Assembly: GCF_000196115.1 (NCBI RefSeq)
Contig: NC_005027.1
Span: forward strand, 868,001-932,000
Direction of reading: 5' to 3'
Origin: Rhodopirellula baltica SH 1
GTDB taxonomy: Bacteria > Planctomycetota > Planctomycetia > Pirellulales > Pirellulaceae
DNA: 64,000 nucleotides
The stretch's first letter is position 1; every line of letters begins with the position of its first letter. This document shows, piece by piece, positions 1 through 14,947 of the stretch. The notes beneath the pieces were generated by a model, which ran no database searches, was not told where the DNA came from, and saw only the letters and a program-made list of their open reading frames with translations. The position numbers and the translations under genes were made by a program.

Positions 1-3000
1 TAGATTGCTGACTTGCAATCGATCTCCGTCGCCATCGAGCGAAATCACATCGCCATGTTGCGAGTCAGTGATGACCGCTGCATCGCCAACCAGTGCGCCG
101 CTGTTTGTGCCTGTTGGCGAAGTGTCGCTGACTGCCGCGGCCGCATCAAATTCGTACAACGCGATCAAGTCAGCGTCGATGTTGAGTTGATAGACTGTTT
201 CATCGGTCGTCGAAATGGTTAACGTGTCGCTGCCGTTGACATTTGCGAGGGGGCTGTATTGCAGTCCGTCCAGTGCATCGTTGATGTCGCTGGTCGTTCC
301 GAGGATCGTCATCGTCCCGGTTCCATTGGTACCCGAGTCGAATGTCAGTCCCGTGGTTTGGCTGAGCGTCAGTGTTCCGTTGTTGACCGACAGGGTCACG
401 CGAAGTATGTCGCTCGCATCATCATTGATGAAAATCTGGTTGTTGTTTCCGCTGTTGAAAACAATCGAGACGTCCTCGTCGGTCGTCTGAGCGGCGGGAA
501 CAACATTGACCGGAGCATCCAGTGCGTCGGTCAGGTTGATTGTGATTGTTTCGCTGTAGCTGTTTCCAGTGGCATCGGTGACCTGCACACCAATGTCGTG
601 CGAGGCTGCGACTTCGATATCCAGCATTGCGCCGGCGGCGACGGTGATCTCGCCAGTGTTGCTATCAATTGCAAATCGGCCATCCGCGTCATCGGTCAGC
701 GTGAACGTGAAGTTGGACAGCACTTCGCTGGCGTCCCATTCGACGACGTAGCCGCGGTTGTCTGCACCAGAAAGGTCAAGCCACTGACCGGTCGATCCAT
801 AGATAGCAACGTAGTCTTCGTTCCCTCCGAAATCATTTGGTTCAATGGAGTTGAAGTTTGCGTAGGCCCCGGTCGGCGCTGCACCCAATTCATCACCGAC
901 CCAGAAACTGTCAGCCTCCGCCCCGTCTTCGATCCAATTCCAGTTGCCCTCGCTCGTCGCGTCAGTGCCTCCAATGTAGAACTCCGATTCCGCTCGGGAA
1001 ACGATGGCCTGAACAAGGTCGTTCTCGTAGGACGAACGGATCGTGACTAGTTGACCGCCGACTCCGTTAATCAAGTCGCTGGACGCGCTCGACATGGCCG
1101 TGGTCACGTTCACCGCGTTTGTGACAAGTTTGTAAAACTTGCCTGTCGCCGCGTCGTAGGACAATGCCGGGTCATCGTTCAAAATCGTCGTCACAGCAGC
1201 GGGAAGTTCGATGACTTGGACGTCAGCGATGTACGGACCATAGGTACTTGTCAGACTTTCGAGCGATCTGAATTGGAGCACCGAAGTCGTGTCGTCCGCT
1301 GTGAAGGTAAAGCTGCGCTGCTCAAATGCTCCGGTTTCACCCCATGACCAATTGCTCTCCTGAGTGGCTTGGAAATCAGCGCTCGTACCGCTCGCACTGA
1401 CGCGAAGATTCTTTACGGCGTCTCCGCCGCTAAAGTCGCCAGTGAGCGCAAAGACAACTTGGTACTGTCGGCCAGCGACAGTCGTCAGATTTTGCTCAAT
1501 CGCTCCCGGCGCAGAACCGTCCAGGTTGACGACACGACCACCCAGCGGAGACTCCCAGTCGTTTGTGGAAAACAGATCAACCGAACCTTGCGTGACGGTC
1601 CAACCACCGAAGGTCCCTGTCACATCATATTGCGTTGTGGATGGGGAAGACTCTTGGAACAACCCATCGTCGACGATATCGCTGCTGACATCAGGACCGC
1701 TTGGTATGACAAACCCAACGCTGGTTCCGTCGGCACTGTTTTCGACGATGTGCAAGTCATCGACGGGCGTGCTGGTGCTGAACCCGGCACCGACTGCATG
1801 TCCGATGCTGAGGTTGTTTCCACCAACGATATCAACGACTTCGCCTGAGCCGTCGAAACCGTCCATTTGCCAGTTTGCGATCAGTCCGGTTGGTAAATTT
1901 CCTTGGCTAAACTTTGATTGATGGTCCAAGGCAGTCTCACCTTGAGTACGGACATCGTCCCAAATACGGATGTCGTAGACCGTTCCTGAAAATAAATTGT
2001 CCGAGGCAAAACCGCCTTCGATGGAATCTTGTTCTTGACCGATTAGAAACACCCCGCCGCCTCGAATCGATTCACCCGTTTGGAAGCCAGTTTCGTAGTA
2101 GTACTGTTGGCCGTCGACACTAGCACTCAATAACCCCGAACTACTGTCCCAACTGATTGTCAGACGGTGTAGCGAACCATCTCGAAGTTCCCCAAAGTCC
2201 ACACCGGTCGCGGTCGTGGCGACACCGTTCAGCAGGACATTGAGATTCCCATTGGCGAGGAATGTCACGCGTAGAGCGTCCGAATTGTCGTCCGGATCCG
2301 AAGGGGAACGATAGGACAACAATGTCATCTTGTCAGGCGACGTGGTGCTGAAACTGATCTCATAGGTGAATTCGGTGCTGCCGCCGAACAACACGTCGCC
2401 ATCCGCTGCGACCAGATACGCGTCATTGCCACCGTCTGAGTTCAGTTCGATGCCGCTTGAAAGATCAGTCGGACCAACGATGGACTCGGTTATGTCGTTC
2501 AACGCAACGCTGAAGACTTCGTCGTAGGTGTTCGAGTCAACATCGGTGACGCGAATGGTTAACGAGTGAGCTGCGTTCGTTTCGAAGTCCAACAGCGAAC
2601 CATCGGCAATCGTGATCACGCCGGTGCTGGCATCGATCGCGAAGGCACCCGTGACGGTTTGGTCTTGGATTGCATAGTTCAACGCTTCGGTGGCATCTAG
2701 GACATCGTCGGCGTTCCACTCAATCAGGTACGCATGATTGAGCGTGGAATTGGTGTCCAACCATTGCCCGTCTGTATGTCTAAGTCGTCCATAGTCCTCA
2801 TCAGCTTGTCCCGCGCTGGGTTCGCCACTGATCCAATTCACATACTGATCGTTTGGACGATAGCCGGTCGAGTCTCCCGACCAAAACGACTCTTCCGGAT
2901 TGCCGTCTTCGTACCAACGCCAATCTCCTTCCGCCTGTTCGTCGGAACCACCGATCCAGACATCGGCACCACCACTTGCAGCGATGCTCCAAACCAATTC

Positions 3001-6000
3001 GTTCTCGGCCGCGGATCCGATATGAACTAAGTCGCCCGCTACGCTGCTAAGCGTGGCTGCATCGGCGGCTGACAACGCAGCATTCCAACTAACGTTTGAG
3101 TTGACGAACTTGTAGAAACTGCCCGTCTCAGCGCTGTAAGTCAGATTGGGATCGGCTGCCAGCAGTGCAGCAATCCTCGCGTTGCGTTCGGTATCCACAC
3201 CGTACAAGTTGCCAACGACGGTGCCGTTGATTGCATTTTCATCGACTGCGAGAGTCAATGTCGGATCGCTTGTAGTGAATCCGGTGCCGCTGGCGTGACC
3301 GACTGTTAGGTTGTTGCCGCTGACTGATTCGGTGACGATTCCGTCAGGCGACAAACCGTCAAATTTCCAGTTGGCGAGTAGGTTGGCTTCATCGTATGGC
3401 AATTCGCTGCGGTAGCTGGCGGCAATTTCCCCGGCAGTCCGAACGTCATCGAAAACGCGGATATCGTGAAGCGTGCCCCTGAAAATTTGGCTCGCGATAT
3501 AGCCTCCGTCGACGGAGTCTTGTTCCTGGCCGAACACCAGCGTGCCACCGGCATCAATCGAGTGCCCAATTGCAACGCTGGATATTGTAGATTTGACCAC
3601 CCCGTCGACGTACAATTCCGCCTCACCCGTCACGCTATCCCACGTCATCGCGATGCCATGCACCTCGCCATCATCGAGCGATGTGAAGTCAAATCCAGAG
3701 AAGCTATAGCTCGCTCCATCGGTATACAGCAGAAGAGTTGTTCCGCTGACGATACTCAGTAAAGCATTCGAATCGGCTTCAGTCGCGTAGGAGAATAGTG
3801 TTGTTTGGTTGGTGATCGAAGTCGATGCAAACTGCATCTCGATCGTGAATTCGGTCAAGCCACCCAGGACACTGTCGCCGTCATCGGCAATGAAATACGC
3901 ATCGTTTCCGCCATCTTCATTGATGCGAATGCCCCCTTGCGTTGTTTCCGTGATCGCCAGGTCGGCGGGAGTCTCAGAGCGGTATGCGTAAAGATCGGAC
4001 ATATCCGACTCGGTGACCGCGTAATTGTAGATCCGCACATCATCGATCAAGCCGTCAAACTCGCCGCCGACACCTCCCGAATTGTAAGCACCCAATGAGA
4101 CGGTCGTCGCACCAGTGACATCGTCGAAGAACGCCGTTGTATCCGTCGAACTTGAATACGTGATTGCGGCACCCGTCAGTTTCACTCCATCCATGTAGAT
4201 CGAGGTTCCTGAGCCATCGGTGGTAACGGCAATGTGGTGCCAATTGCCATCGTTGATCGTTGCGGTCGATGTTGTGCGAACAAGTGATGAACCCCCGACA
4301 TTAACGCTCCAGATCAATTGCCCGTTGTCAATCCACAGAGAAGCGAAGTTTGATGTTGTTCCATCGTTGGTATCCAGGATCGTATTGAAACCGGTGTCGG
4401 TAGTGTTGACCCAAGCTGAAATTGTGCCTTCGGAAAGGTCATCAAACCTTGAGATTGACGACGTCAGGTCCACGTAGTCGCCAGTTCCATCGAGTGTCAG
4501 TTTTCCGTCCCCGACTTGGTTTGTTCCACTGGTCGTGTCAACCGATGCGTCACCTTGAAAGACGCCGTCCAAGCCGTTGCCGCTGCTGTCGGTGGCTCCG
4601 GTTTGTGGATCGAATTTGTAGTGTGCCAATAGTCCGATCGGAGCAACGAACTCGTAGGCACCAATATCAACAGAGCTATCGCGAGCGACTGCGCGTTGGT
4701 CGGCAGTGGGGGCACCTATGTTGCTACCTGCATCAATGGCGGTGCTGGCTCCCAAAAGGGCGTGGGTCCACGTTGCACCACCATTGTCCGCTAAAGCCTC
4801 CAACATCGGATCGAGTGGGCTGCCGCTGGTGCCGACTTGATTCCCGTTGACGCCGTCGACTAGAACGGATTGACCGGTCCCGTCACCGATTAGGTTGTTA
4901 CCCAGATCGTTGATCGTGCCGACGGATGAAAGATCGTCGGCCCCACCGCCGCTATTTCCAGCGATGATGGTGTTGCGGATGTTTAGCGTGCCGGTGCTAG
5001 TCACTCGGACCGCCCCGCTGTCTCCATGGGTGTTGCCGGTAACCGTGACGTTCTGCAGCGTTGTCGTTCCGTTGGTTACGAATATCGCTGAACCGTGGTG
5101 ACTGGCCCCTGCGGTATTTCCGCTGAAGGTTGTGTTTGTGATTGTCAAATCCCCGGCACCGTAGATCGCACCGCCTGAATTTAGGGTGCTGGAATTGCTG
5201 ACAAAAAGAGAATCAGTGATTGTGGCCGTCCCGGTTCCAGCTTGATAAAGTGCGCCCCCAAGATCATTGCTGGACCAGTTGTCGGTAAATGTGGTTCTTT
5301 CTATCGTCAAGTCACCTGAGTTGCGAATTGCCCCGCCCTCGGCACCCGTTGCGTTGTTAGATTCAAATTCGGAATCGAGGATCGTTAGCGTGCCGGCGTT
5401 CAATATGGCTCCGCCTCCGGCATTGTTGGATTCGTTGTTGAACATTCGAACGGTGTCGAGCGTGACATCTGTTCCGACATTGACATCGATACCCGATCCA
5501 ACGACGGTCCCTTGCCCGCCCTGGATCGTCATGTCTTGGAAAACCACCGTTCCCAAAAAGACCTCAAAGACTCGGTCATTTTGGCTAGCGTCGATGATCG
5601 TGCTGCCAATTCCGTCACCAACGATGGTCATGCTATTGCGAATATCAAAATCGCCTGCCGTGTCACCCGATCCTGCAGCAAACGTGTAGGTACCCGCGCC
5701 GACGTCGATCCTCCAGTTCGTCGCGGAGTCATTGTTGACTGCGAGAATCGCTTCACGAAACGAAATGAAACCATCTGCTCCGCGGTTAGCCAACAACGCC
5801 GCAACGCTGGTGGTTGTGCCGTCGATCACATCGCTCGTTGTATCAACGCTCAGTACGCTCTCGTAGGTCGTCGTGAAACGTTGGGTAAATACACCGGCGG
5901 CATCTCCAGTCCCATTTCCACTCCATGCGATCACCGCACTAGTGCCACTGAAAGCGACGGTCGTGTTGTCTTGTTCATTCGACGTTGTTGTGTTGACCAG

Positions 6001-7803
6001 CCTTTCTCCGCTTAGCCGAGCACCTTCGCTATCGAACTGCTGAGCGTACACGCCGTTGCCGCTTCCGTCCTGCGACTCGCTGTTCCAGGTGATGATGAAT
6101 TCACCCGACTCATTCATGTCGACATGCGAGCGAGACTGATTGCCCGTGGTGTAGGTGTTGACCTGAAATTCATCACCCAGAGCCGATCCCGACGAATCAA
6201 AACGTCGAGCCCAGATGCCGTCCTGGTTTCCATCGGAACTTGTCCAGGTGACAACGAAGTTGCCAGCACTATCAGAATCCACATTCGCGTATTGCTGATC
6301 ACCTGCCACCGTTTGGTTCACCAGAAAGTTCGACCCTTGCGATACGCCTAGCGCATCGTAGCGTTGGCCGTAAATGCCATAGGTCGTACCATTGTCTTGA
6401 TTTTGGCTTTCCCAGGTGACGACGAAGCTACCATCACCCGCGACCGCTACAGTTGCGTTTTGTTGTGTATTGCTTGTCGTAGTGTTGACGAGCGTGTTGG
6501 ATCCTTGTGCAACACCACTGGCGTTGTATCGCTGAAGATAGACGTTTGGCTCTGTCAAACTTTCGAACACGACAACGAAAGAACCGTCGGCCGCAAAGTC
6601 AGCCGATGTATTGGCTTGCCCGCCAGTGAGCGTACTAACCTGGGTTTCGGCGGTTAAGGCATTGCCATTGACATCAAACAACCGCATGTACGTTTCATAG
6701 GTCCCTGATCGCTCATCGTCCCACGTAACGAGAAAGTTGCCATTTTCAGCCATAGTGACAGTGCCCCAATCCTGGGCACTCGAGCTGGCAGAGTGAACGC
6801 GAAAGTCAGAGGTAAGTACTGTGCCGTCCGCATTGAACACCTTTGCGTAAACATCTGAGTTGCCACTCTGGTAATCATCCCAGACAACGACGTATCGCCC
6901 GGAATCATCCATGTCCACATTGCCGCTTAACGGCCTCGTTTCCTGATTCGCGGTCGTTGTTGCGTTGACCAGTGTCTCGCCTCCCGTTTCCGTTAAATCA
7001 AGCGAGTGGTGCCATGATGCTTGAGCGAGATAAGCAAAGGCGACGTCGGTATCGACATCGCCGACGGAGTATTCGAGGATCCAGTCACCACCGAGGTCTG
7101 CGTGACCGGTCGCATCGTCACTGGCCGCGACGTCGCAATTGCAAACCAACGCGAGCATCTCGATCAAGTCTTGACCTTCGGTCGTGCTTGCCAAATCGCA
7201 ACCGTAGATCAACAGATCGGCCTGCGTGTCAAGCGAATGTCCCCACGACGCAATGTCGCCGGCAAACGACGGAGCGGAATCAATGCTCAATCGATCGTTG
7301 CCCAACTGAATTGCTTCACCGTCGCCGTGCGAAACCAAATGAATCGCATCGACACCTTGCAACATCGATAGCGCGCTGCTGATTTGATCGATACCGCTTT
7401 GGTCGCTCGCTAAGCGTACGACGACCCACTGTGTGTCTTCATTTTGATTGCGTAGGTTCTGGACGAGCGTATCGCTGTCTTGCACGCCTTCGTCAATGAA
7501 GATGACTTCGATCGGCCGCGCTGGATCCAACGTGATGGGACCGTCGGCCGGATCGTAGAACTCAGGATCGTCTTTCGGCCGACGCGCTTCACCATCGGGT
7601 GTGACGTCGGTGATATCAAAATCATTCAGCGCAGCGTCGATCGAGTCCAACTCGGCGTTGAGTGATTCGAGTAGCTCCGCATCAGGTGCGACGACATCAA
7701 TTGCTTCCAAACCTTCACCCGAGAGAAGGACTCGATCTTCGAGTTGAAAGAAGTGAAAGTCGCGTTTGGACATCGCTGAATCTTCAGGATCGTTATTTTG
7801 CAT
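1..7803 (-). CDS. Giant LEDR-VLL / DUF4347 multidomain surface protein (3' end outside window)
   Basis: The minus-strand frame is open from ATG 7803 to base 1 (2601 codons, no stop seen), so the C-terminus lies beyond the window. GAGG at 7813-7816 sits 9 nt before the ATG. No classical signal peptide is visible. Residues 21-28 read LEDRVLLS, the planctomycete LEPR-XLL-type N-terminal motif of secreted proteins. Approximate order by residue: DUF4347 about 95-270 (LVSHGDGEAIQLG, YGCDLAST); seven repeats of about 50 residues with FVVTWES-type cores, 280-645; parallel beta-helix with TITNTTFSGN-like turns, 650-1050; LamG 1050-1250 and 1280-1480; C-type lectin 1550-1690; cadherin-like 1690-1760; LamG 1775-1960; a DUF642-like choice-of-anchor region 1985-2195; a second C-type lectin 2205-2340; cadherin-like 2343-2420; another repeat; and the start of a further LamG. 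The role is probably a secreted adhesin or sugar-binding surface protein. It is divergent from the export operon at 8145-14947, which is its likely exporter (inference). Confidence 0.9.
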   Translation of the reverse strand, partial: MQNNDPEDSAMSKRDFHFFQLEDRVLLSGEGLEAIDVVAPDAELLESLNAELDSIDAALNDFDITDVTPDGEARRPKDDPEFYDPADGPITLDPARPIEVIFIDEGVQDSDTLVQNLRNQNEDTQWVVVRLASDQSGIDQISSALSMLQGVDAIHLVSHGDGEAIQLGNDRLSIDSAPSFAGDIASWGHSLDTQADLLIYGCDLASTTEGQDLIEMLALVCNCDVAASDDATGHADLGGDWILEYSVGDVDTDVAFAYLAQASWHHSLDLTETGGETLVNATTTANQETRPLSGNVDMDDSGRYVVVWDDYQSGNSDVYAKVFNADGTVLTSDFRVHSASSSAQDWGTVTMAENGNFLVTWDDERSGTYETYMRLFDVNGNALTAETQVSTLTGGQANTSADFAADGSFVVVFESLTEPNVYLQRYNASGVAQGSNTLVNTTTSNTQQNATVAVAGDGSFVVTWESQNQDNGTTYGIYGQRYDALGVSQGSNFLVNQTVAGDQQYANVDSDSAGNFVVTWTSSDGNQDGIWARRFDSSGSALGDEFQVNTYTTGNQSRSHVDMNESGEFIITWNSESQDGSGNGVYAQQFDSEGARLSGERLVNTTTSNEQDNTTVAFSGTSAVIAWSGNGTGDAAGVFTQRFTTTYESVLSVDTTSDVIDGTTTSVAALLANRGADGFISFREAILAVNNDSATNWRIDVGAGTYTFAAGSGDTAGDFDIRNSMTIVGDGIGSTIIDASQNDRVFEVFLGTVVFQDMTIQGGQGTVVGSGIDVNVGTDVTLDTVRMFNNESNNAGGGAILNAGTLTILDSEFESNNATGAEGGAIRNSGDLTIERTTFTDNWSSNDLGGALYQAGTGTATITDSLFVSNSSTLNSGGAIYGAGDLTITNTTFSGNTAGASHHGSAIFVTNGTTTLQNVTVTGNTHGDSGAVRVTSTGTLNIRNTIIAGNSGGGADDLSSVGTINDLGNNLIGDGTGQSVLVDGVNGNQVGTSGSPLDPMLEALADNGGATWTHALLGASTAIDAGSNIGAPTADQRAVARDSSVDIGAYEFVAPIGLLAHYKFDPQTGATDSSGNGLDGVFQGDASVDTTSGTNQVGDGKLTLDGTGDYVDLTSSISRFDDLSEGTISAWVNTTDTGFNTILDTNDGTTSNFASLWIDNGQLIWSVNVGGSSLVRTTSTATINDGNWHHIAVTTDGSGTSIYMDGVKLTGAAITYSSSTDTTAFFDDVTGATTVSLGAYNSGGVGGEFDGLIDDVRIYNYAVTESDMSDLYAYRSETPADLAITETTQGGIRINEDGGNDAYFIADDGDSVLGGLTEFTIEMQFASTSITNQTTLFSYATEADSNALLSIVSGTTLLLYTDGASYSFSGFDFTSLDDGEVHGIAMTWDSVTGEAELYVDGVVKSTISSVAIGHSIDAGGTLVFGQEQDSVDGGYIASQIFRGTLHDIRVFDDVRTAGEIAASYRSELPYDEANLLANWKFDGLSPDGIVTESVSGNNLTVGHASGTGFTTSDPTLTLAVDENAINGTVVGNLYGVDTERNARIAALLAADPNLTYSAETGSFYKFVNSNVSWNAALSAADAATLSSVAGDLVHIGSAAENELVWSIAASGGADVWIGGSDEQAEGDWRWYEDGNPEESFWSGDSTGYRPNDQYVNWISGEPSAGQADEDYGRLRHTDGQWLDTNSTLNHAYLIEWNADDVLDATEALNYAIQDQTVTGAFAIDASTGVITIADGSLLDFETNAAHSLTIRVTDVDSNTYDEVFSVALNDITESIVGPTDLSSGIELNSDGGNDAYLVAADGDVLFGGSTEFTYEISFSTTSPDKMTLLSYRSPSDPDDNSDALRVTFLANGNLNVLLNGVATTATGVDFGELRDGSLHRLTISWDSSSGLLSASVDGQQYYYETGFQTGESIRGGGVFLIGQEQDSIEGGFASDNLFSGTVYDIRIWDDVRTQGETALDHQSKFSQGNLPTGLIANWQMDGFDGSGEVVDIVGGNNLSIGHAVGAGFSTSTPVDDLHIVENSADGTSVGFVIPSGPDVSSDIVDDGLFQESSPSTTQYDVTGTFGGWTVTQGSVDLFSTNDWESPLGGRVVNLDGSAPGAIEQNLTTVAGRQYQVVFALTGDFSGGDAVKNLRVSASGTSADFQATQESNWSWGETGAFEQRSFTFTADDTTSVLQFRSLESLTSTYGPYIADVQVIELPAAVTTILNDDPALSYDAATGKFYKLVTNAVNVTTAMSSASSDLINGVGGQLVTIRSSYENDLVQAIVSRAESEFYIGGTDATSEGNWNWIEDGAEADSFWVGDELGAAPTGAYANFNSIEPNDFGGNEDYVAIYGSTGQWLDLSGADNRGYVVEWDASEVLSNFTFTLTDDADGRFAIDSNTGEITVAAGAMLDIEVAASHDIGVQVTDATGNSYSETITINLTDALDAPVNVVPAAQTTDEDVSIVFNSGNNNQIFINDDASDILRVTLSVNNGTLTLSQTTGLTFDSGTNGTGTMTILGTTSDINDALDGLQYSPLANVNGSDTLTISTTDETVYQLNIDADLIALYEFDAAAAVSDTSPTGTNSGALVGDAAVITDSQHGDVISLDGDGDRLQVSNL

Positions 7804-8144
7804 GGTGAATTGCCTCATCGTCCTAAACGACACAAATTGACGTCCGCATGAGACGTACGGGTGTCCACGTAGGATCCGCTGACTTTGCGGGTTCGGCTGA
7901 CTTGACGCGTTGTTCCGATTGATACCGGTCAAAACGTGTGTGAGGCTCAATTTGCTCACGGTCGTTGCAATCCTCGCGACCGTGTCATCCGAAGAGTTAT
8001 GTACACGTAGTGGATCAACGCACAGGATCTCACGGTTCGTGATCACCCCAGCGGTTGAGAGGGCACGCTTGCCAACCTTCGGATGAAGGAGCGGGCGACA
8101 ACCGATGGTGATTGTTTGCAGTAGCAAATCTGGTTTAGGTAGGA
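7804..8144. promoter_or_regulatory. Divergent intergenic region between giant protein and export operon
   Basis: This 341-bp gap must hold both divergent promoters, though I see no convincing -35/-10 pair. It contains a hairpin, CACGGTCG at 7957-7964 with CGACCGTG at 7977-7984 (12-nt loop). It also has a perfect 10-bp inverted repeat, TCATCCGAAG at 7985-7994 and CTTCGGATGA at 8077-8086. These could be regulator sites shared by the two units (inference). I see no gene in it. Confidence 0.5.
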
Positions 8145-10211
8145 ATGACGCCCACGTATCAGCATCACCGCAGCATTCGACGGAGCAGACCTCTGCAGGT
8201 CTCGACGTCGAAATGCGAAAATCGACGTTCGTCGGCGAAGGCATATCAGCCTTGGCGATGGTCGACGGTTGCTGCTTGGATGCTAGTAACCGGTGGTTTG
8301 ATCTTGATGGGGATGCACTCACCAGTCCTCCGAGCGGAAGAAACGCCGGGAACGTCTTTTCAGCAGTTCCTCGAGAACGCCGCACGCAACATGGCGGACG
8401 CAAATCGTCGCGATTCGTTGCAGCCCGAAACGCCGCCAGCAACCCATTCGACGCCTGTTTCGTCGTCAAACAACGACTCTTTGGCGTTGCCGCCGGAGCC
8501 TCCCGAGGTCACCACCGCGGTCCAAACGGTCGCTCCGTGGTGGGAATCCATCGCTTTTTCGGGGCTGTTGCAGACGCCCGATCAAGTCTCTTTCGATTTG
8601 CCAACCGTCCTGACCGACACACTCGAGACCAGTCCTCGGATCTCGTCAGTTTCACGGCGGACTTTGATTGCGTACGAAAAGATTGTTCAGCAGAACGCCG
8701 TGTTTGATCCGACGCTGCTGCTGGAAGGTGGCTACGGTCGTGTCAATGATCCGGTTGGAAGCACGCTGACAACAGGTGGACCCGACCGATTGATCCAGAA
8801 CTCGGTGATCGCCAGCGGCGGCTTCCGCAAGCTGACACGACGAGGTGCGGTTGTCGATCTGACACAAGAACTGGGAACGCTGGATAGCAACAGTCTGTTC
8901 TTTGAACCCAACCCGCAAGGCAACTCAAGGGTCAGCCTTAGCATCACACAACCGTTGTTGGCGACCAGCGGTGAAGTCTACAACACCCGACTCGTGACTC
9001 AGGCATCGATCGATAGTCGGATCGCCTGGCAGGAGATGCGTTCGGAGGTTGAGTCTCATCTTGTCGATACATTTCAAGCGTTTTGGCGTTTGTACGAACG
9101 ACGTTGCCACCTGGTCCAGCAACGAAGCTTGATCGAACGAGGCGAACAGATCGCTCGCATCGTTGACGGACGCGCGGATTTGGATTCCGGACCACTTCAA
9201 CGCATCAAAGTTCAACGTCGATTGGCAAACGATCGCGATCGCCAAATCGAAATCGAAGCGGAATTGCAACGACTTCAAGTGCGTCTGCGAACTTTGGTTG
9301 GAAGCCCGGAACTGACGGCGATGAATCAATCGGTCGAACTGATTCCGTTGGCCAATCCCGAGATCCCGAAGGAAGACATCGATCTGAAAGACGCGATCGT
9401 TCGCGGATTGGAATATCGGCCGGACATCCAAGCCGCAACGCAAGAATTGGCGTCCGCGGGATTGGGGATCAACGTGACGCGAAACGAATTGAAGCCGCAG
9501 TTGGATGCGGTTTTCGATGCGTATTTGTCTGGTCTTCGAGGAAACAATCGATTCTTCCAGGCTTTTGGTGACCAATTCACCGAAGGTCCCGGTTTGACGG
9601 CGACGTTGCAGTACAGCCTGCCATACGGTCGCCGCGCCGCACGCAGTCGCGTTCGCGAAGCAAGGTATCGATACCAACAACGCAGCGAAGAGTTGCGTCA
9701 AAGTTTGTTGGTCGCGCAACGCGAAATCGAGACCGCGTTGATTCAAGCGAATGCAAACTTTCGATTGCGTGAAAGCAAAGCGATCACTTTGCAGGCCGCA
9801 ATTCGAGAAGAAGAAATCGCAATGCGGCGCTGGGAGTTGTTAGCAGGCGACGGCGGTCCGACGGCACTCGTGCTGGAAGACTTGCTGGAAACTCAGAAAC
9901 GCCGTACCGAGAGCGAGCAGTTGTTCGTCACCGCACAGGTCTCGTCCATCATCTCTTTGATCGAGTTGCAAAAGGCGATGGGAACGTTGTTGATGACTGA
10001 AGGCGTTGAGCCATCGCGATGCGGCAACACAAGCCAAATTGACATCTTGAAAATGGAACCGGTTGAGATTGATCAATTGCACACTCCGACTCACGTCACC
10101 GAATGGAGCCCACAGGTGGTTGGCGAATCGTTGATTGGAGAGTTTGGACTAATTGAACTAGAGAATTCAGCGGTCGACGATGCAGCGTCCACTATGGAAC
10201 GGATGGAATAA
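8145..10211 (+). CDS. TolC-like outer-membrane efflux protein
   Basis: A 688-residue protein. The N-terminus carries a long basic n-region and a hydrophobic stretch (residues about 40-60) ending in SPVLRA before EETPG, a signal-peptidase-like site. The body has the TolC pattern: helical, with repeated segments rich in Q, R and E, for example an amphipathic helix near RCHLVQQRSLIERGEQIARI and a second half with EYRPDIQAATQELASAGLG, a hallmark of the outer membrane efflux protein family. The N-terminal extension of about 130 residues is longer than in ordinary TolC. It is the first gene of a four-gene operon with adaptor and M50 genes and presumably forms the outer-membrane duct. There is no obvious ribosome binding site; GTAGGA lies directly before the ATG. 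The family assignment is firm; the substrate is unknown. Confidence 0.88.
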   Translation: MTPTYQHHRSIRRSRPLQVSTSKCENRRSSAKAYQPWRWSTVAAWMLVTGGLILMGMHSPVLRAEETPGTSFQQFLENAARNMADANRRDSLQPETPPATHSTPVSSSNNDSLALPPEPPEVTTAVQTVAPWWESIAFSGLLQTPDQVSFDLPTVLTDTLETSPRISSVSRRTLIAYEKIVQQNAVFDPTLLLEGGYGRVNDPVGSTLTTGGPDRLIQNSVIASGGFRKLTRRGAVVDLTQELGTLDSNSLFFEPNPQGNSRVSLSITQPLLATSGEVYNTRLVTQASIDSRIAWQEMRSEVESHLVDTFQAFWRLYERRCHLVQQRSLIERGEQIARIVDGRADLDSGPLQRIKVQRRLANDRDRQIEIEAELQRLQVRLRTLVGSPELTAMNQSVELIPLANPEIPKEDIDLKDAIVRGLEYRPDIQAATQELASAGLGINVTRNELKPQLDAVFDAYLSGLRGNNRFFQAFGDQFTEGPGLTATLQYSLPYGRRAARSRVREARYRYQQRSEELRQSLLVAQREIETALIQANANFRLRESKAITLQAAIREEEIAMRRWELLAGDGGPTALVLEDLLETQKRRTESEQLFVTAQVSSIISLIELQKAMGTLLMTEGVEPSRCGNTSQIDILKMEPVEIDQLHTPTHVTEWSPQVVGESLIGEFGLIELENSAVDDAASTMERME

Positions 10212-10215
10212 GAAA

Positions 10216-11145
10216 ATGACAAAGCAAACTTCATGGACGGTTGTCGGTTTGAGCGTCTTCGTCGCGTTCCATCTAACCGCCGATCTCGCATCTGCGCAAG
10301 CCACAACGGGCACGCAGCGAGGCATCGCACTGTATGGCGATTCAGCTTACGAAGGATTTTCGCAAGCCATCGAAGACATTTATCTGAGCAGCGAAGATCT
10401 GGGGCGAATCATCGAACTCCCTGTGAAAGTCGGCCAACGGGTCAAAGCCAACGATGTCATCGCACGATTCGACGATGAAATTGAAAAAGCATCGATGGAG
10501 ATCGCTCAGGCGCAAGCTTCCATGATGGGGGAAATCAATGCGGCTCAAGCGGCGCTGGATATGCAGACGATTCGGGTCGAACACCTTCGTCGATTATTGC
10601 GTGACGAGATGGCGGGTTCCGATGAGCTCCGTCGAGCCGAGATGGAATTGAAAATTGCCGCGGCTCGGTTGTTGACCGCTACCGAACAGCGAACGCTCCG
10701 ATCGGCAGAAGCCAACCGACTCGAATTGCAATGGAAACGACGAACGATTCGTGCTCCGTTCGATGGAGTGGTTGCCGAAAAGAAGGCCGGGTTGGGAGCC
10801 ACGATCACACCGTCATCCCCTGAAATTGTTCGTTTGGTGCGGACCGACACTCTTCACGGTGTTTTCAACGTGATGGCTGACCGTGCGTTGCAGATGAAGC
10901 CGGGCATGGAAACACAGGTCTATTTCCGGGCCGCTCGAAAGACTGTGGATGGAAAGATCGACACGATTGGCCCATCGATCAACAGCGAAAGTGGCACCAT
11001 TGAGATTCGGGTTCGGATCGACAACCCAACAGGTGAGCTTCGGCCTGGTGACCGCTGCACCATGCGTGTTGTTGCACCGAATCTATCTGACGAAGGTCCC
11101 GAGTCGGTCTCCAAGCTGCGAAAGTCAGGAGTCAATCGATGGTAA
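10216..11145 (+). CDS. HlyD-like periplasmic adaptor with signal peptide
   Basis: A 309-residue membrane-fusion (periplasmic adaptor) protein. I chose ATG 10216, 4 nt after the TolC-like stop, because it opens a clean signal peptide (MTKQTSWTVVGLSVFVAFHL, cut after ADLASAQA). An in-frame upstream ATG at 10180 would overlap the TolC-like gene. The lipoyl/barrel-sandwich halves are visible at LPVKVGQRVKANDVIARFDD and RTIRAPFDGVVAEKKAGLGA, separated by an alpha-hairpin of about 80 residues rich in A, E and R. A beta-barrel follows (GMETQVYFRAARKTVDGKI). Unlike most HlyD proteins it lacks a retained N-terminal membrane anchor, so it is probably free in the periplasm and bridges the channel to the membrane components encoded next. 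Confidence 0.85.
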   Translation: MTKQTSWTVVGLSVFVAFHLTADLASAQATTGTQRGIALYGDSAYEGFSQAIEDIYLSSEDLGRIIELPVKVGQRVKANDVIARFDDEIEKASMEIAQAQASMMGEINAAQAALDMQTIRVEHLRRLLRDEMAGSDELRRAEMELKIAAARLLTATEQRTLRSAEANRLELQWKRRTIRAPFDGVVAEKKAGLGATITPSSPEIVRLVRTDTLHGVFNVMADRALQMKPGMETQVYFRAARKTVDGKIDTIGPSINSESGTIEIRVRIDNPTGELRPGDRCTMRVVAPNLSDEGPESVSKLRKSGVNRW

Positions 11146-12590
11146 GTGCTGCCGCATCGACCGATTTCGCGAACAAAGCCAAACCCGAACGCTCGGTTGC
11201 GCCGAACGCTACGAATGCGCCCGCGATGCAGTCCTCTGAGTTGTCGGATGTTTCGCGATCGAAACTGTTCCAATCGATGTGGCACACTTGGTTGACGGAG
11301 ATGGCTTCCACAAAGGACCGTGTGTCCGCCGCGGAATTGCTGGTTCAGCGGTTGGGTGCCGTGTTGCCCGATCACACGATCCGCTTGGGTTGGGGCGCTC
11401 GGACGATGCATCGATTGCATGACGGACGCCTGGGATGGCTGGGAGCTGAAAACTCCATCCGTCAACGGTATGACGCACAGTGGTTGGCATCGACATCAGA
11501 CGACAGCACACCTCCGACCGAAAGCATGTCGCGATGGGACAATGGAACTCTGGTGATCGATTTGGTACCGGATGTCGAGAATGCATCGCAATCGAGCGAT
11601 TCGACGGAAGGCGGCTCGACAACGATTCCTCGTTGCCAGCTTTGGATACGGCCTCCAGGTGCGGATGACTTTGATGCGCGAACCTTTCAACGAATGCTGA
11701 CTCCCGATGTGATGGGATTGTTTGCTGCGATCTTCTTGAGTCGACCAGCAAAAGATCATTGGGGACGTCTGGCGAACAAGCTGAGCAAGTGGTGGTCACG
11801 ACGTGGGCTGATCGGAATCGCATTCTTAGTGACTTTGATTTTAACATGTATCCCGATGTCGTATCGAACGCATGCAATTGCGACCGTCGCCCCAATGAAC
11901 GGACGGCTGATCGCATCGCCAATTGATGCAACGCTGCTGACGACGTTGGTTCGTCCGGGCGATCGCGTGACAGCCGGGCAAACACTGTTGCAGTTGGATG
12001 GACGCCCGTTGCGGATCGAATTGGAATCTCTGCTGGCGGAGATCGATGAGGCACAGAAAGACGAGGACATCGCACTGGCAAGTAATCAAATCGCTTCCGC
12101 GCAGCTGGCGGGGCTACGCCGGAAAACATTGCTTCGGAAAGCGGAGTTGTTGCAAGACAAATTGAGCAAACTTGATGTCGTGTCGCCGATTGATGGGATT
12201 ATCATCCAGGGTGACCTGACTCGTTCGCTCGGGACTCCTTTGGAAATTGGCCAAACGTTGATGGAAGTCGCCCCCGAAGGAAACGTTGAGATTGAATTGG
12301 AACTGCCCGAGTCCGAAATCGGATTTGTGGAAATGAACGCTCCCGTTGAATTGTGGTTTCCCGCTTTGGATGGGGAAGCTTTCGAAAGCAGCGTGCAGTC
12401 GGTATGGCCGGCCGCGACGATTCGCGATGATTCCAACGTCTTCGTCGCCATCGCGGAACTGCCAAACGAAAACGCGGCTTTGCGAGTGGGGATGCGTGGC
12501 GAAGCGATCGTGATGGGACCGACGTACCCATGGATTTGGAAGTGGATTCGAACCCCCGTCAGACGAATGGGGTGGATGATCGGATGGTGA
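11139..12590 (+). CDS. Membrane-anchored HlyD-like protein with N-terminal GAF-like region
   Basis: A 483-residue protein. It overlaps the previous gene by 7 bp (ATGGTAA), implying coupled translation. Residues about 40-215 form a soluble region predicted to be cytoplasmic (MWHTWLTEMASTKDRVSAAE, then strand-rich segments such as CQLWIRPPGADDFD) that resembles a GAF-type fold, though I cannot confirm it. One membrane segment follows at about 225-245 (GLIGIAFLVTLILTCIPMSY). The periplasmic part has two barrel-sandwich halves (RPGDRVTAGQTLLQLDGRPL and LDVVSPIDGIIIQGDLTRSL) around a short hairpin, then a beta-barrel. The architecture suggests an inner-membrane adaptor that senses something on the cytoplasmic side. 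The partner is probably the M50 fusion downstream. Confidence 0.8.
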   Translation: MVSAAASTDFANKAKPERSVAPNATNAPAMQSSELSDVSRSKLFQSMWHTWLTEMASTKDRVSAAELLVQRLGAVLPDHTIRLGWGARTMHRLHDGRLGWLGAENSIRQRYDAQWLASTSDDSTPPTESMSRWDNGTLVIDLVPDVENASQSSDSTEGGSTTIPRCQLWIRPPGADDFDARTFQRMLTPDVMGLFAAIFLSRPAKDHWGRLANKLSKWWSRRGLIGIAFLVTLILTCIPMSYRTHAIATVAPMNGRLIASPIDATLLTTLVRPGDRVTAGQTLLQLDGRPLRIELESLLAEIDEAQKDEDIALASNQIASAQLAGLRRKTLLRKAELLQDKLSKLDVVSPIDGIIIQGDLTRSLGTPLEIGQTLMEVAPEGNVEIELELPESEIGFVEMNAPVELWFPALDGEAFESSVQSVWPAATIRDDSNVFVAIAELPNENAALRVGMRGEAIVMGPTYPWIWKWIRTPVRRMGWMIGW

Positions 12591-14947
12591 ATCCAAACGA
12601 AGCTTCCACCAAACAACCGCAATTGGACGACAGCGTTCTAGCGGAACGGAAGGCCTTGACCGAACCGTCGCCCCAAGCCCCCAAAGTGCGGCTGGATCCG
12701 GAGCTGGAGTTCACCGTTTGCGAAGTGGCAGGTGTCACGGTCATTCGTGCTGCGCACGGTGGTACGGGTCAGCATTTCCAATTGGGAACGTCCGAGCACT
12801 ACGTCGCAACACTGCTGGATGGCCATCGCTCAACCACCGAGATCGTCCAACAAGCCGAGCGGGATGGTTTGGACTGGTCGCCAGAAGACGTCGCTGACTT
12901 CATCGCGGTATTGGTGGCTCAGAAAATCGCGATCGCCGAAGGCACGCCGGCCGTGGCGCCGCAGCTGCCAGTCGAAGTCGCTACCAATCCCCCGACCGAG
13001 TCCGACGCCGATGCGGTGAATATTGATGAGGTGTCAGTTGAAGACTCAAATGAGGACGACGCTGTTGAGTCTGCGTCTGGGCCGACGGGGAAGGCCAGTC
13101 GGACCAGCATCTTCGCAGTTGCATCGCGGATGTTTTCCGTTTGCGTTGGTCCGTTCATCAAAGCATGTTCGTGGTTGATCAGTTTGCGGTTTCCGTTGAT
13201 CAATGCAAACGGACCCGCGAACGCATTGCTTCCATTGGCGCGACCGCTTTTCACTGTGCACGGTGTGGTTGTTGCCGGAGCATTCATCGCGATCACGATG
13301 TCATTTGCTTTGTTTCAACGAAGCCAACTGACGGCGGAGCTAATGCGGATTTTTGATTCGCAGCTTTGGGTTGGAATGCTGGCCATCTGGGCGGTCATGA
13401 AGTTGATCCATGAAATGGGCCACGCCGTCGCGGCTCGTTGGCATGGGGTCCAGGTTGGCAAAGCCGGCGTGATGTTCTTTCTGATGGCACCCCTTGCCTA
13501 CGTGGATGTGACCAATGCCTGGCGTCTGCCCAACCGCCAATCTCGCGCTTCGATCGCAATGGCGGGCGTTTACTGGGAACTGTTGATCGCATCGATTGCC
13601 TTTTGGATTTGGTGCTGGCACCCAACCGATTTCGCCGCGCATTTGGCTGCACAAATCTTCTTTATCGCCGGTCCTGCGACGTTGCTGGTCAACGCCAATC
13701 CTCTGTTGCGTTTGGATGGCTACTACGTGCTATCCGACTGGACGGACATTCCCAATTTGCGAGAACAAGGTCGCAAGCTGTTCGGGGGCTGGTTGCAGTT
13801 CAAACTATTCGCGATGCGAGGTCCCAGCTGCAAGTTGTCTGGTTGGCGGCGAGGATTTGCCTCCTGCCACGCCGCCGCTTCGGTCGTCTTTCAGGTTGTC
13901 TGGATGGGCGGATTGATTGTCGTTGTTTCGATGTGGGCGGGCCCGGTCGGATTGCTGATGGCGATGGCTGCGATCCTGTTGTGGGTGATGCTTCCGGCCG
14001 TGAAATTCGCGGGCAAAGTTTGGAACTACGAAGGCGAGGCGGAATCCTTTTCGAAATGGTCGCATCGCCGGCGTGCAATATGGACGTGCGTGACGTTCTG
14101 CTTTCTCGCCCAGTTCCTGGTGACATTGCCGTCACCACTCAGCCGCCCGGTGCCGGTGGTAGTGCGGTTTGCGGATGATCAAATTCTGCGATCGCCCATT
14201 GATGGTTTTGTCGATCAGATCGTCATGCAATCCGGTGATTCGGTCATGGCGGGACAAGTCATCCTGCAGTTGATCGATCACGAACTGGTCGCTGAACGCG
14301 ATGCGACCCAGTTGGAACTGGACGCGGAAGAGATCAAATGGCAACGCCACGAAGGATTGGGCGAACTTGGATTGGCGGAAGCCGCAAAACAGAAGTCCGA
14401 AAGTTTGCGACGAAGCTTGGAAGAGTTGAACGCACAGGTGGATTCTCTGCGGGTGGTTGCGCAGCGCGACGGTGAAATCCTAACAACGGACTTGGATGCT
14501 CTTCGCGAATCTTACGTGCGTGCTGGGGAAGAGCTGGTCCACATCGGTGTTCGCCAGCGAATGGAATTGTTGGTTTCGGTTGGTGATTCCGACTTGGATG
14601 CATATCGTTCGGCGCTACAAAAGGACGAACCCATGCAAGTTCTTTTTCGCGGTGGAGAAATCATCGAAGTCCATCCCGAGAAGTTGCAACCTCGCGCCAG
14701 CCGCCAAATTCCGCATCCCGCACTCGCGGCAACCGTGGATGGGCCACTGCCGGTTGCCCCCGCAAAGAAACAGTCGCAATCGTCAGATCCATACGAATTG
14801 TTGACACCACGCTTCCAATCGATTGTCCCTTTGTCACCCGCTGTCAGCGATCGCGTTCGAGCGGGTGAGACCGGGCAAATGGCACTTCGCGATCAAAGAA
14901 GCCTGGGGCGACGGTTTTGGGATTGGTTGTCCGAAGGTGCGTCTTAG
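12584..14947 (+). CDS. PqqD-like / M50 site-2 metalloprotease / HlyD fusion protein
   Basis: 787 residues from ATG 12584, which overlaps the upstream stop by 7 bp (ATGGTGA), the same arrangement as the preceding gene pair; an in-frame ATG at 12530 is less likely. The N-terminal ~30-130 segment (QHFQLGTSEHYVATLLDGHR) looks like a PqqD-type winged helix, the fold that binds peptide leaders in RiPP systems. A low-complexity acidic linker follows, then a multi-pass membrane region with the zinc motif HEMGH at 276-280 and NANPLLRLDGYYVL with Asp378, the third ligand region of site-2 proteases. After the last membrane segment (LVTLPSPLSRPVPVV) there is a barrel-sandwich domain (IDGFVDQIVMQSGDSVMAGQ) with coiled-coil. 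All key zinc residues are present, so it should be active. It probably processes or helps translocate the exported substrate. Confidence 0.85.
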   Translation: MVNPNEASTKQPQLDDSVLAERKALTEPSPQAPKVRLDPELEFTVCEVAGVTVIRAAHGGTGQHFQLGTSEHYVATLLDGHRSTTEIVQQAERDGLDWSPEDVADFIAVLVAQKIAIAEGTPAVAPQLPVEVATNPPTESDADAVNIDEVSVEDSNEDDAVESASGPTGKASRTSIFAVASRMFSVCVGPFIKACSWLISLRFPLINANGPANALLPLARPLFTVHGVVVAGAFIAITMSFALFQRSQLTAELMRIFDSQLWVGMLAIWAVMKLIHEMGHAVAARWHGVQVGKAGVMFFLMAPLAYVDVTNAWRLPNRQSRASIAMAGVYWELLIASIAFWIWCWHPTDFAAHLAAQIFFIAGPATLLVNANPLLRLDGYYVLSDWTDIPNLREQGRKLFGGWLQFKLFAMRGPSCKLSGWRRGFASCHAAASVVFQVVWMGGLIVVVSMWAGPVGLLMAMAAILLWVMLPAVKFAGKVWNYEGEAESFSKWSHRRRAIWTCVTFCFLAQFLVTLPSPLSRPVPVVVRFADDQILRSPIDGFVDQIVMQSGDSVMAGQVILQLIDHELVAERDATQLELDAEEIKWQRHEGLGELGLAEAAKQKSESLRRSLEELNAQVDSLRVVAQRDGEILTTDLDALRESYVRAGEELVHIGVRQRMELLVSVGDSDLDAYRSALQKDEPMQVLFRGGEIIEVHPEKLQPRASRQIPHPALAATVDGPLPVAPAKKQSQSSDPYELLTPRFQSIVPLSPAVSDRVRAGETGQMALRDQRSLGRRFWDWLSEGAS

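Follow-up and report, generated by a model that had tools for sequence, protein, structure and literature searches.

How a giant surface protein leaves a Gram-negative cell, when the operon facing its gene encodes a TolC-like channel and HlyD-like adaptors and no ABC transporter, is the question raised by a locus of Rhodopirellula baltica SH 1. The window analysed here is the whole stretch of 64,000 nucleotides at C1:868001-932000 of the genome, a single contig of 7,145,576 bases. An initial annotation had described a giant gene divergent from genes for a TolC-like protein, two HlyD-like adaptors and an M50-HlyD fusion, and all five genes were found in place and supported by Pfam, as follows.

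1-7773, minus strand: giant surface-type protein, N-terminal 2,591 of about 7,490 aa, counted from MSKRDF
7000-7506, minus strand: DUF4347, modelled as a cysteine-protease-like domain (Pfam, 7.8e-49; His in SHG, Cys in YGCD)
7723-7743, minus strand: LEDRVLL motif of the LEPR-XLL type, residues 11-17 from MSKRDF, putative export leader (NCBIfam LEPR-8K)
7819-8144: divergent intergenic region between giant and operon
8145-10211, plus strand: TolC/OEP-family outer-membrane channel, 688 aa (Pfam OEP, 2.6e-19)
10180-11145, plus strand: HlyD/RND-type periplasmic adaptor, 321 aa (Pfam HlyD_D23, 2.2e-19)
11139-12590, plus strand: second adaptor, 483 aa (Pfam HlyD_D23, 1.7e-14; clade alignment)
12530-14947, plus strand: fusion of a putative RRE/PqqD-like region, an M50 intramembrane metalloprotease and HlyD, 805 aa (Pfam Peptidase_M50, 2.7e-8; RRE from relatives)
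13409-13423, plus strand: HEMGH zinc motif of the M50 domain, with the third ligand in NPLLRLDG at 13697-13720

The gene for the giant starts near 7773 on the minus strand (MSKRDFHFFQLEDRVLLSGEGL), with alternative starts at 7803 or 7818, and leaves the window to end at C1:853319, giving a full length of about 7,490 aa. A TTG at 8469 was rejected as its start, the real one lying at about 7773-7818. The protein matches the NCBIfam family LEPR-8K (NF012209) at 3.4e-4 and 20.1 bits against a cut-off of 17, and besides DUF4347 its Pfam domains are Laminin_G_3, Pentaxin, Lectin_C, DUF642 and Cadherin; Rhodopirellula europaea carries an orthologue (L027). The four operon genes (OEP/TolC, RND/HlyD adaptor, extended adaptor and M50-HlyD fusion) overlap, contain no ABC, SecA or other motor gene among them, and are preceded by an intergenic region (7819-8144) in which no sigma-70-like promoter was found. 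The first adaptor matches TIGR01730 at 127.9 bits, above the cut-off, and the second consists of an N-terminal region of about 220 aa, one transmembrane segment and a HlyD domain.

The M50 fusion and the module described earlier

The fusion carries the M50 metalloprotease motifs, HExxH and a distal NxxPxxxxDG, and also a weak Pfam match to HlyD. Of the PqqD-M50-HlyD architecture first proposed for it, the PqqD-like part escapes Pfam in the window protein and is seen in relatives, an RRE/PqqD-like region being found in 10 of 40 by Pfam (best 3.4e-7) and in 9 of 40 by NCBIfam. Searched against the PDB, the family profile matched TfuB1 at E 0.009, while an AlphaFold2 model of the fusion built from three sequences was not interpretable (mean pLDDT 36). 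Conservation of HExxH in all 101 M50 fusions compared argues that the fusion cuts something. The window fusion matches the NCBIfam model daptide_HExxH at 2.2e-42, below the family cut-off, and a LiaK-type model as well. With the M50 peptidases of daptide and YydH/LiaK RiPP systems the fusion shares an intramembrane protease and, in many relatives, an RRE/PqqD-like domain; it differs from them in scoring below the family cut-offs, in its giant-protein cargo and in its fused HlyD domain. On these matches and on the RRE/PqqD-like N-terminus one might suppose that the sets make or export small peptides, as daptide or epipeptide systems do, and that their neighbourhood with giants is incidental, but we consider this extremely improbable, as no small precursor gene recurs at the set loci and the association with giants, set out below, is far above chance and repeated across phyla.

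As a module, the set was already known. A conserved locus of a secondary SecA_DEAD protein, HlyD, GAF-HlyD, M50 and sometimes OEP was described by Kamneva, Poudel & Ward (2015; PMC4452313), who proposed that SecA is the ATPase and M50 the pore, and who called the biological role 'completely unknown'. The second adaptor in the window corresponds to their GAF-HlyD protein; the GAF assignment is theirs, and no GAF domain was detected by Pfam in the window's protein (Kamneva et al., 2015; PMC4452313). Their module and the window set have in common an M50-HlyD fusion with GAF-HlyD and HlyD neighbours, but the module has a secondary SecA-like ATPase in the locus, which the window set lacks and a sister set in the same genome (C1:64.7-73.2 kb) possesses. 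That paper makes no mention of giants, cadherins, DUF4347, LEPR or R. baltica, and names neither cargo nor signal (PMC4452313). In the open literature, to which our search was confined, we found no later paper building on the module for export of giants and no export route for LEPR-XLL proteins, and LEPR-XLL and DUF4347 are barely discussed. What the present analysis adds to the module is a likely cargo, the LEPR-XLL giants, and a likely signal, LExRxLL, together with a membrane tag that most giants carry at the C-terminus and a variant of the set without SecA.

The R. baltica genome contains six M50-HlyD fusions, not one, and alignment of the six paralogues showed HExxH in all. The sister set has a window-like layout and is likewise divergent from a DUF4347 giant, but its TolC and adaptor genes are separated by an additional one, which encodes a SecA-like ATPase of 683 aa (Pfam SecA_DEAD, 3e-76; P-loop_SecA, 8.8e-43; SecA_PP_bind, 3.5e-22). 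No set lies near the third DUF4347 gene of R. baltica (1,279 aa, C1:1272271). The M50 fusion of the second set is broken into two frames in the draft genome of R. europaea 6C (L029:10747-13001).

Giants beside sets within and beyond the Pirellulaceae

A sample of 14 complete Pirellulaceae genomes contained 89 M50 sets and 65 DUF4347 genes. No more than 12 kb separated 24 of these 65 genes from a set, nearly all such pairs being divergent, against a random expectation of 1.3 and a maximum of 6 in 2,000 placements. By frame size, 22 of 37 frames of at least 2,000 aa lay this close and 2 of 28 shorter ones, with about a third of the large and nearly all of the small DUF4347 genes lacking a set in the vicinity. 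Across 149 genomes of the family, a module-type TolC gene lay within 8 kb of 56 of the 150 best DUF4347 matches, in 51 cases divergently; 77 genomes had both genes, 14 TolC only, 8 DUF4347 only and 50 neither (Fisher p 3e-18, a value that overstates independence because the genomes are related). The co-occurrence of sets with LEPR-XLL/DUF4347 giants that was to be looked for in planctomycete genomes is borne out in both samples of Pirellulaceae.

In a tree of the M50 proteins, 33 sets form a clade with support of 0.98 (clade A), and in 29 of the 33 a TolC gene is co-directional. A DUF4347 gene lies in the 20-kb region of 21 of these sets; at two more (L199 and L211) the giant intervenes and the DUF4347 start is 24-28 kb distant, so that 23 of 33 adjoin a DUF4347 giant. 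Another clade-A set (L206) adjoins a LEPR protein without DUF4347, and no giant is nearby at L187, L190, L193, L194, L196, L200, L204, L221 and L228. Sets of a different M50 clade adjoin LEPR giants without DUF4347 (L015, L169, L174, L179 and L218). Further M50 sets with neither TolC nor giant occur in all 14 genomes, and since one orthologous TolC-less type is giant-free in nearly every genome, service to a neighbouring giant is not general among M50 sets. M50-HlyD sets of this kind include L012-L014 and L153-L165 with their orthologues, one type being present in nearly every Pirellulaceae genome, and the R. baltica set L013, which has no TolC and no giant, adjoins flagellar hook genes. Directly downstream of the window's giant is a TM-PAS-GGDEF-HD gene (C1:850438-853065, minus strand; L011:1438-4065), and similar genes adjoin two giant-less clade-A sets (L200:1418-3844 and L204:17508-19964); these GGDEF-type neighbours of giant and sets hint at c-di-GMP control.

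The pairing recurs outside the planctomycetes. Seven proteobacterial cases in which a giant gene adjoins a set, usually immediately upstream and in the same orientation, were found on plasmids of Alpha-, Beta- and Gammaproteobacteria, the hosts being Methylosinus, Mesorhizobium, Pseudosulfitobacter, Alisedimentitalea, Escherichia coli, Burkholderia anthina and Variovorax. The gene order in Methylosinus is giant, DUF3467, HlyD, PqqD-M50, SecA, HlyD and TolC, and in E. coli, B. anthina and Variovorax it is giant, TolC, HlyD, HlyD and M50, without SecA. A small DUF3467 gene stands between giant and set in both Methylosinus and Mesorhizobium (L290:10247-10567 and L291:36598-36903), and its product is a possible helper. 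The Pseudosulfitobacter giant is encoded by a 38.7-kb gene annotated LEPR-XLL and that of Variovorax by a 48.7-kb gene. In E. coli, the M50 gene was present in 24 of 5,426 genomes, as was the 5' part of the cargo gene, and one chromosomal copy has the giant and set in the same order as the plasmid. The complete E. coli LEPR/DUF4347 giant (L289:4830-24581) and its set occur on plasmids and a few chromosomes in nearly identical copies. That a cargo giant and its set form one unit we take to be near certain.

The putative signal and other features of the giants

The 24-position LEPR-8K profile misses many true motifs, and motif counts were therefore taken from sequences that were read. An LExR- or LExM-type motif was present in 42 of 42 DUF4347 proteins read, usually 40-110 residues ahead of the domain. 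All six proteobacterial cargos whose N-terminus was read have LExR, at about residues 17-53 (LESRQLF, LEPRVLL, LEPRLLL, LEPRFLL, LEPRVVY and LEARYMF), and LEPRFMF occurs in an Azospirillum giant whose gene is 10 kb away from a solitary M50 fusion. The Phaeobacter and Dolichospermum proteins with DUF4347 have no LExR in the part read and neither a set nor a type I secretion system (T1SS) nearby, one side only being covered in Dolichospermum. Because LExR cargos come with a set and DUF4347 proteins lacking LExR come without one, the comparison suggests that it is LExR, and not DUF4347, that marks a cargo. The premise of the initial annotation that DUF4347 giants elsewhere use ABC-type systems was not supported: the LExR giants of plasmids accompany the M50 set and the two DUF4347 proteins without LExR have no T1SS nearby. 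Its pairing of the M50 set with giants bearing LEDR-VLL as a possible signal finds good support in genome context, in that clade-A sets lie by LEPR/DUF4347 giants and LExR extends to the proteobacterial cargos. LExR is rather likely to serve as an export signal. Simple hydropathy revealed no strongly hydrophobic, Sec-like stretch around the LEPR motif, although TolC and HlyD controls scored only slightly higher, which makes this weak evidence.

DUF4347 itself models as a cysteine-protease-like fold, possibly of clan CD type. Of the solved structures, the one closest to the model, an alpha/beta domain (pLDDT 62 overall, with the core confident in part), is Tce1 (Z 13.4 across 150 residues); scores against caspases and legumain (Z 7-8) fall in a range tied with unrelated folds, and a PDB sequence search with the DUF4347 profile gave no match. 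A His/Cys pair is kept in 41 of 42 profile-detected domains (37 by pattern match, and 4 of the other 5, with HG and GC, by eye), L205 being the single domain of the 42 without both residues. Tce1 is PA0256 of Pseudomonas aeruginosa, a putative cysteine protease (PMC13323088, PMC8262886), and PA0256 is said to carry DUF4347. If so, both Tce1 and the giant have the domain, but Tce1 is delivered by a type VI secretion system, whereas the giant has the domain in its N-terminal part.

Large giants also share a C-terminal tag, consisting of a membrane segment GYVxWxLRGG followed by PAWRxxDP, and the giant of this locus has GYVxWALRGG...PxWRxxDP in its terminal membrane segment. With the ends of most giants judged by profile only, 30 of the 37 DUF4347 frames of at least 2,000 aa had the tag, as did 1 of the 28 shorter frames; it is absent from the proteobacterial cargos. 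The same tag ends proteins of about 960-1,060 aa without DUF4347 (matches in G143, G123, G180, G206 and G128). Small LEPR/DUF4347 proteins of about 1,280 aa that have no set nearby (L237:4212-8045, L238:8228-12082 and L239:4994-8767) end in VDLDDGLVGRWEIV and share a conserved neighbour of about 1,050 aa.

The probable motor and the proposed route of export

The absence of an ABC ATPase from the locus, claimed at the outset, was confirmed, each of the six M50 sets lying tens of kb from the nearest ABC_tran match in the genome. ABC genes occurred in 13 of 89 set regions of 20 kb, no more often than the approximately 0.19 per region predicted by 67 matches in a genome of 7.15 Mb, and the idea of ABC genes hidden near the sets was rejected on this background frequency. 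The TolC channel, the HlyD adaptors and the giant repeat adhesin are common to the window set and to T1SSs (HlyB-HlyD-TolC, or LapBCE for giant adhesins), but the latter have an ABC transporter and a C-terminal signal where these sets have an M50 fusion, SecA and a likely N-terminal signal. A T1SS whose ABC component is encoded elsewhere, the M50 protein only trimming the leader as in some peptide exporters, would account for the TolC and HlyD parts, and ABC exporters do exist elsewhere in the genome; an ABC exporter of about 690 aa follows three orthologous sets (L225, L226 and L230) at a distance of about 3 kb and in the same orientation. Given the background frequency of ABC genes, their absence from the proteobacterial operons and the SecA-like nature of the accompanying ATPase, where there is one, we regard such an arrangement as improbable.

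The sets are not motor-free as a class. A SecA-like ATPase is encoded in 19 of 33 clade-A sets, although in none of the window subclade of nine, and of the 41 non-SecA1 genes in the 14 genomes, 23 were no more than 12 kb away from an M50 set (0.9 expected; maximum 7 of 5,000). Walker A and B were intact in the six set SecAs inspected, and in a SecA tree the set proteins stand apart from SecA1 and from the core second SecA, a few grouping near the latter. R. baltica has three SecA genes (C1:69887, 1061671 and 6305466), none of them in the window set, and every genome of the 14 encodes a single long SecA and, at a separate site, a shorter second SecA. The second SecA, of about 740 aa (C1:1061671-1062894 in R. 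baltica), occurs once in each of the 14 genomes, away from the M50 sets, and is a possible motor in trans. That SecA is the motor, provision in trans included, we hold only slightly more probable than its opposite.

Taken together, the gene content and distribution make it fairly probable that the set exports LEPR-XLL giants, with the M50 fusion reading and perhaps cutting the leader, HlyD and TolC parts forming the conduit, and a SecA-type protein supplying the power. In the sequence of events that we envisage, the RRE/PqqD-like domain of the fusion would bind the LEPR-XLL leader in the cytoplasm, and a SecA-type ATPase would feed the unfolded chain in from N- to C-terminus; the sister set would draw this ATPase from its own operon, and the window set would be served in trans by either the second SecA (C1:1061671) or the housekeeping SecA. 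The transmembrane part of M50 would form or guard an inner-membrane gate and clip the leader. Passage to the surface would lead through the HlyD parts and TolC, and the C-terminal membrane tag would stop transfer and tether the giant. Once outside, DUF4347 may process the N-terminus.

Alternatively, the giant might cross the inner membrane by ordinary Sec, with the set acting later as a processing, retention or release complex in which M50 cuts a membrane segment and TolC/HlyD release the chain or recycle fragments. Site-2 proteases of the M50 family normally cut membrane segments, a hydrophobic segment ends most large cargos while HExxH is kept in 101 of 101 fusions, and the sets of the window, E. 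coli, Burkholderia and Variovorax have no motor gene of their own, all of which would suit such a role. The lack of a strongly hydrophobic, Sec-like stretch around the LEPR motif speaks against it, as does the absence of the C-terminal segment from proteobacterial cargos, and the presence of a SecA-like ATPase in about half of the clade-A sets is hard to fit with a purely post-translocation complex. We therefore judge this alternative unlikely, and export by the set, rather than processing after Sec, appears to us the likelier function.

Accessory Sec (SecA2/SecY2) exports serine-rich adhesins in Gram-positive bacteria, and in both systems a dedicated SecA paralogue is tied to giant surface adhesins; here, however, no SecY2 was found, and the TolC, HlyD and M50 parts belong to a Gram-negative envelope. 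Whether the sets amount to a distinct ABC-free class of Gram-negative secretion, in which an RRE-guided intramembrane protease and a SecA-type motor, own or borrowed, would be dedicated to N-terminal LEPR-XLL giants, often C-terminally tagged, in Planctomycetota and in Proteobacteria including E. coli plasmids, we put at an even chance. Some LEPR-XLL proteins rank among the largest in bacteria, reaching about 16,000 aa beside such sets, and their link with the sets would provide a cargo for an orphan machine and a machine for an orphan signal. If true, it would mean an additional way out of Gram-negative cells that needs no ABC transporter, and would put SecA and intramembrane proteases to a new use.
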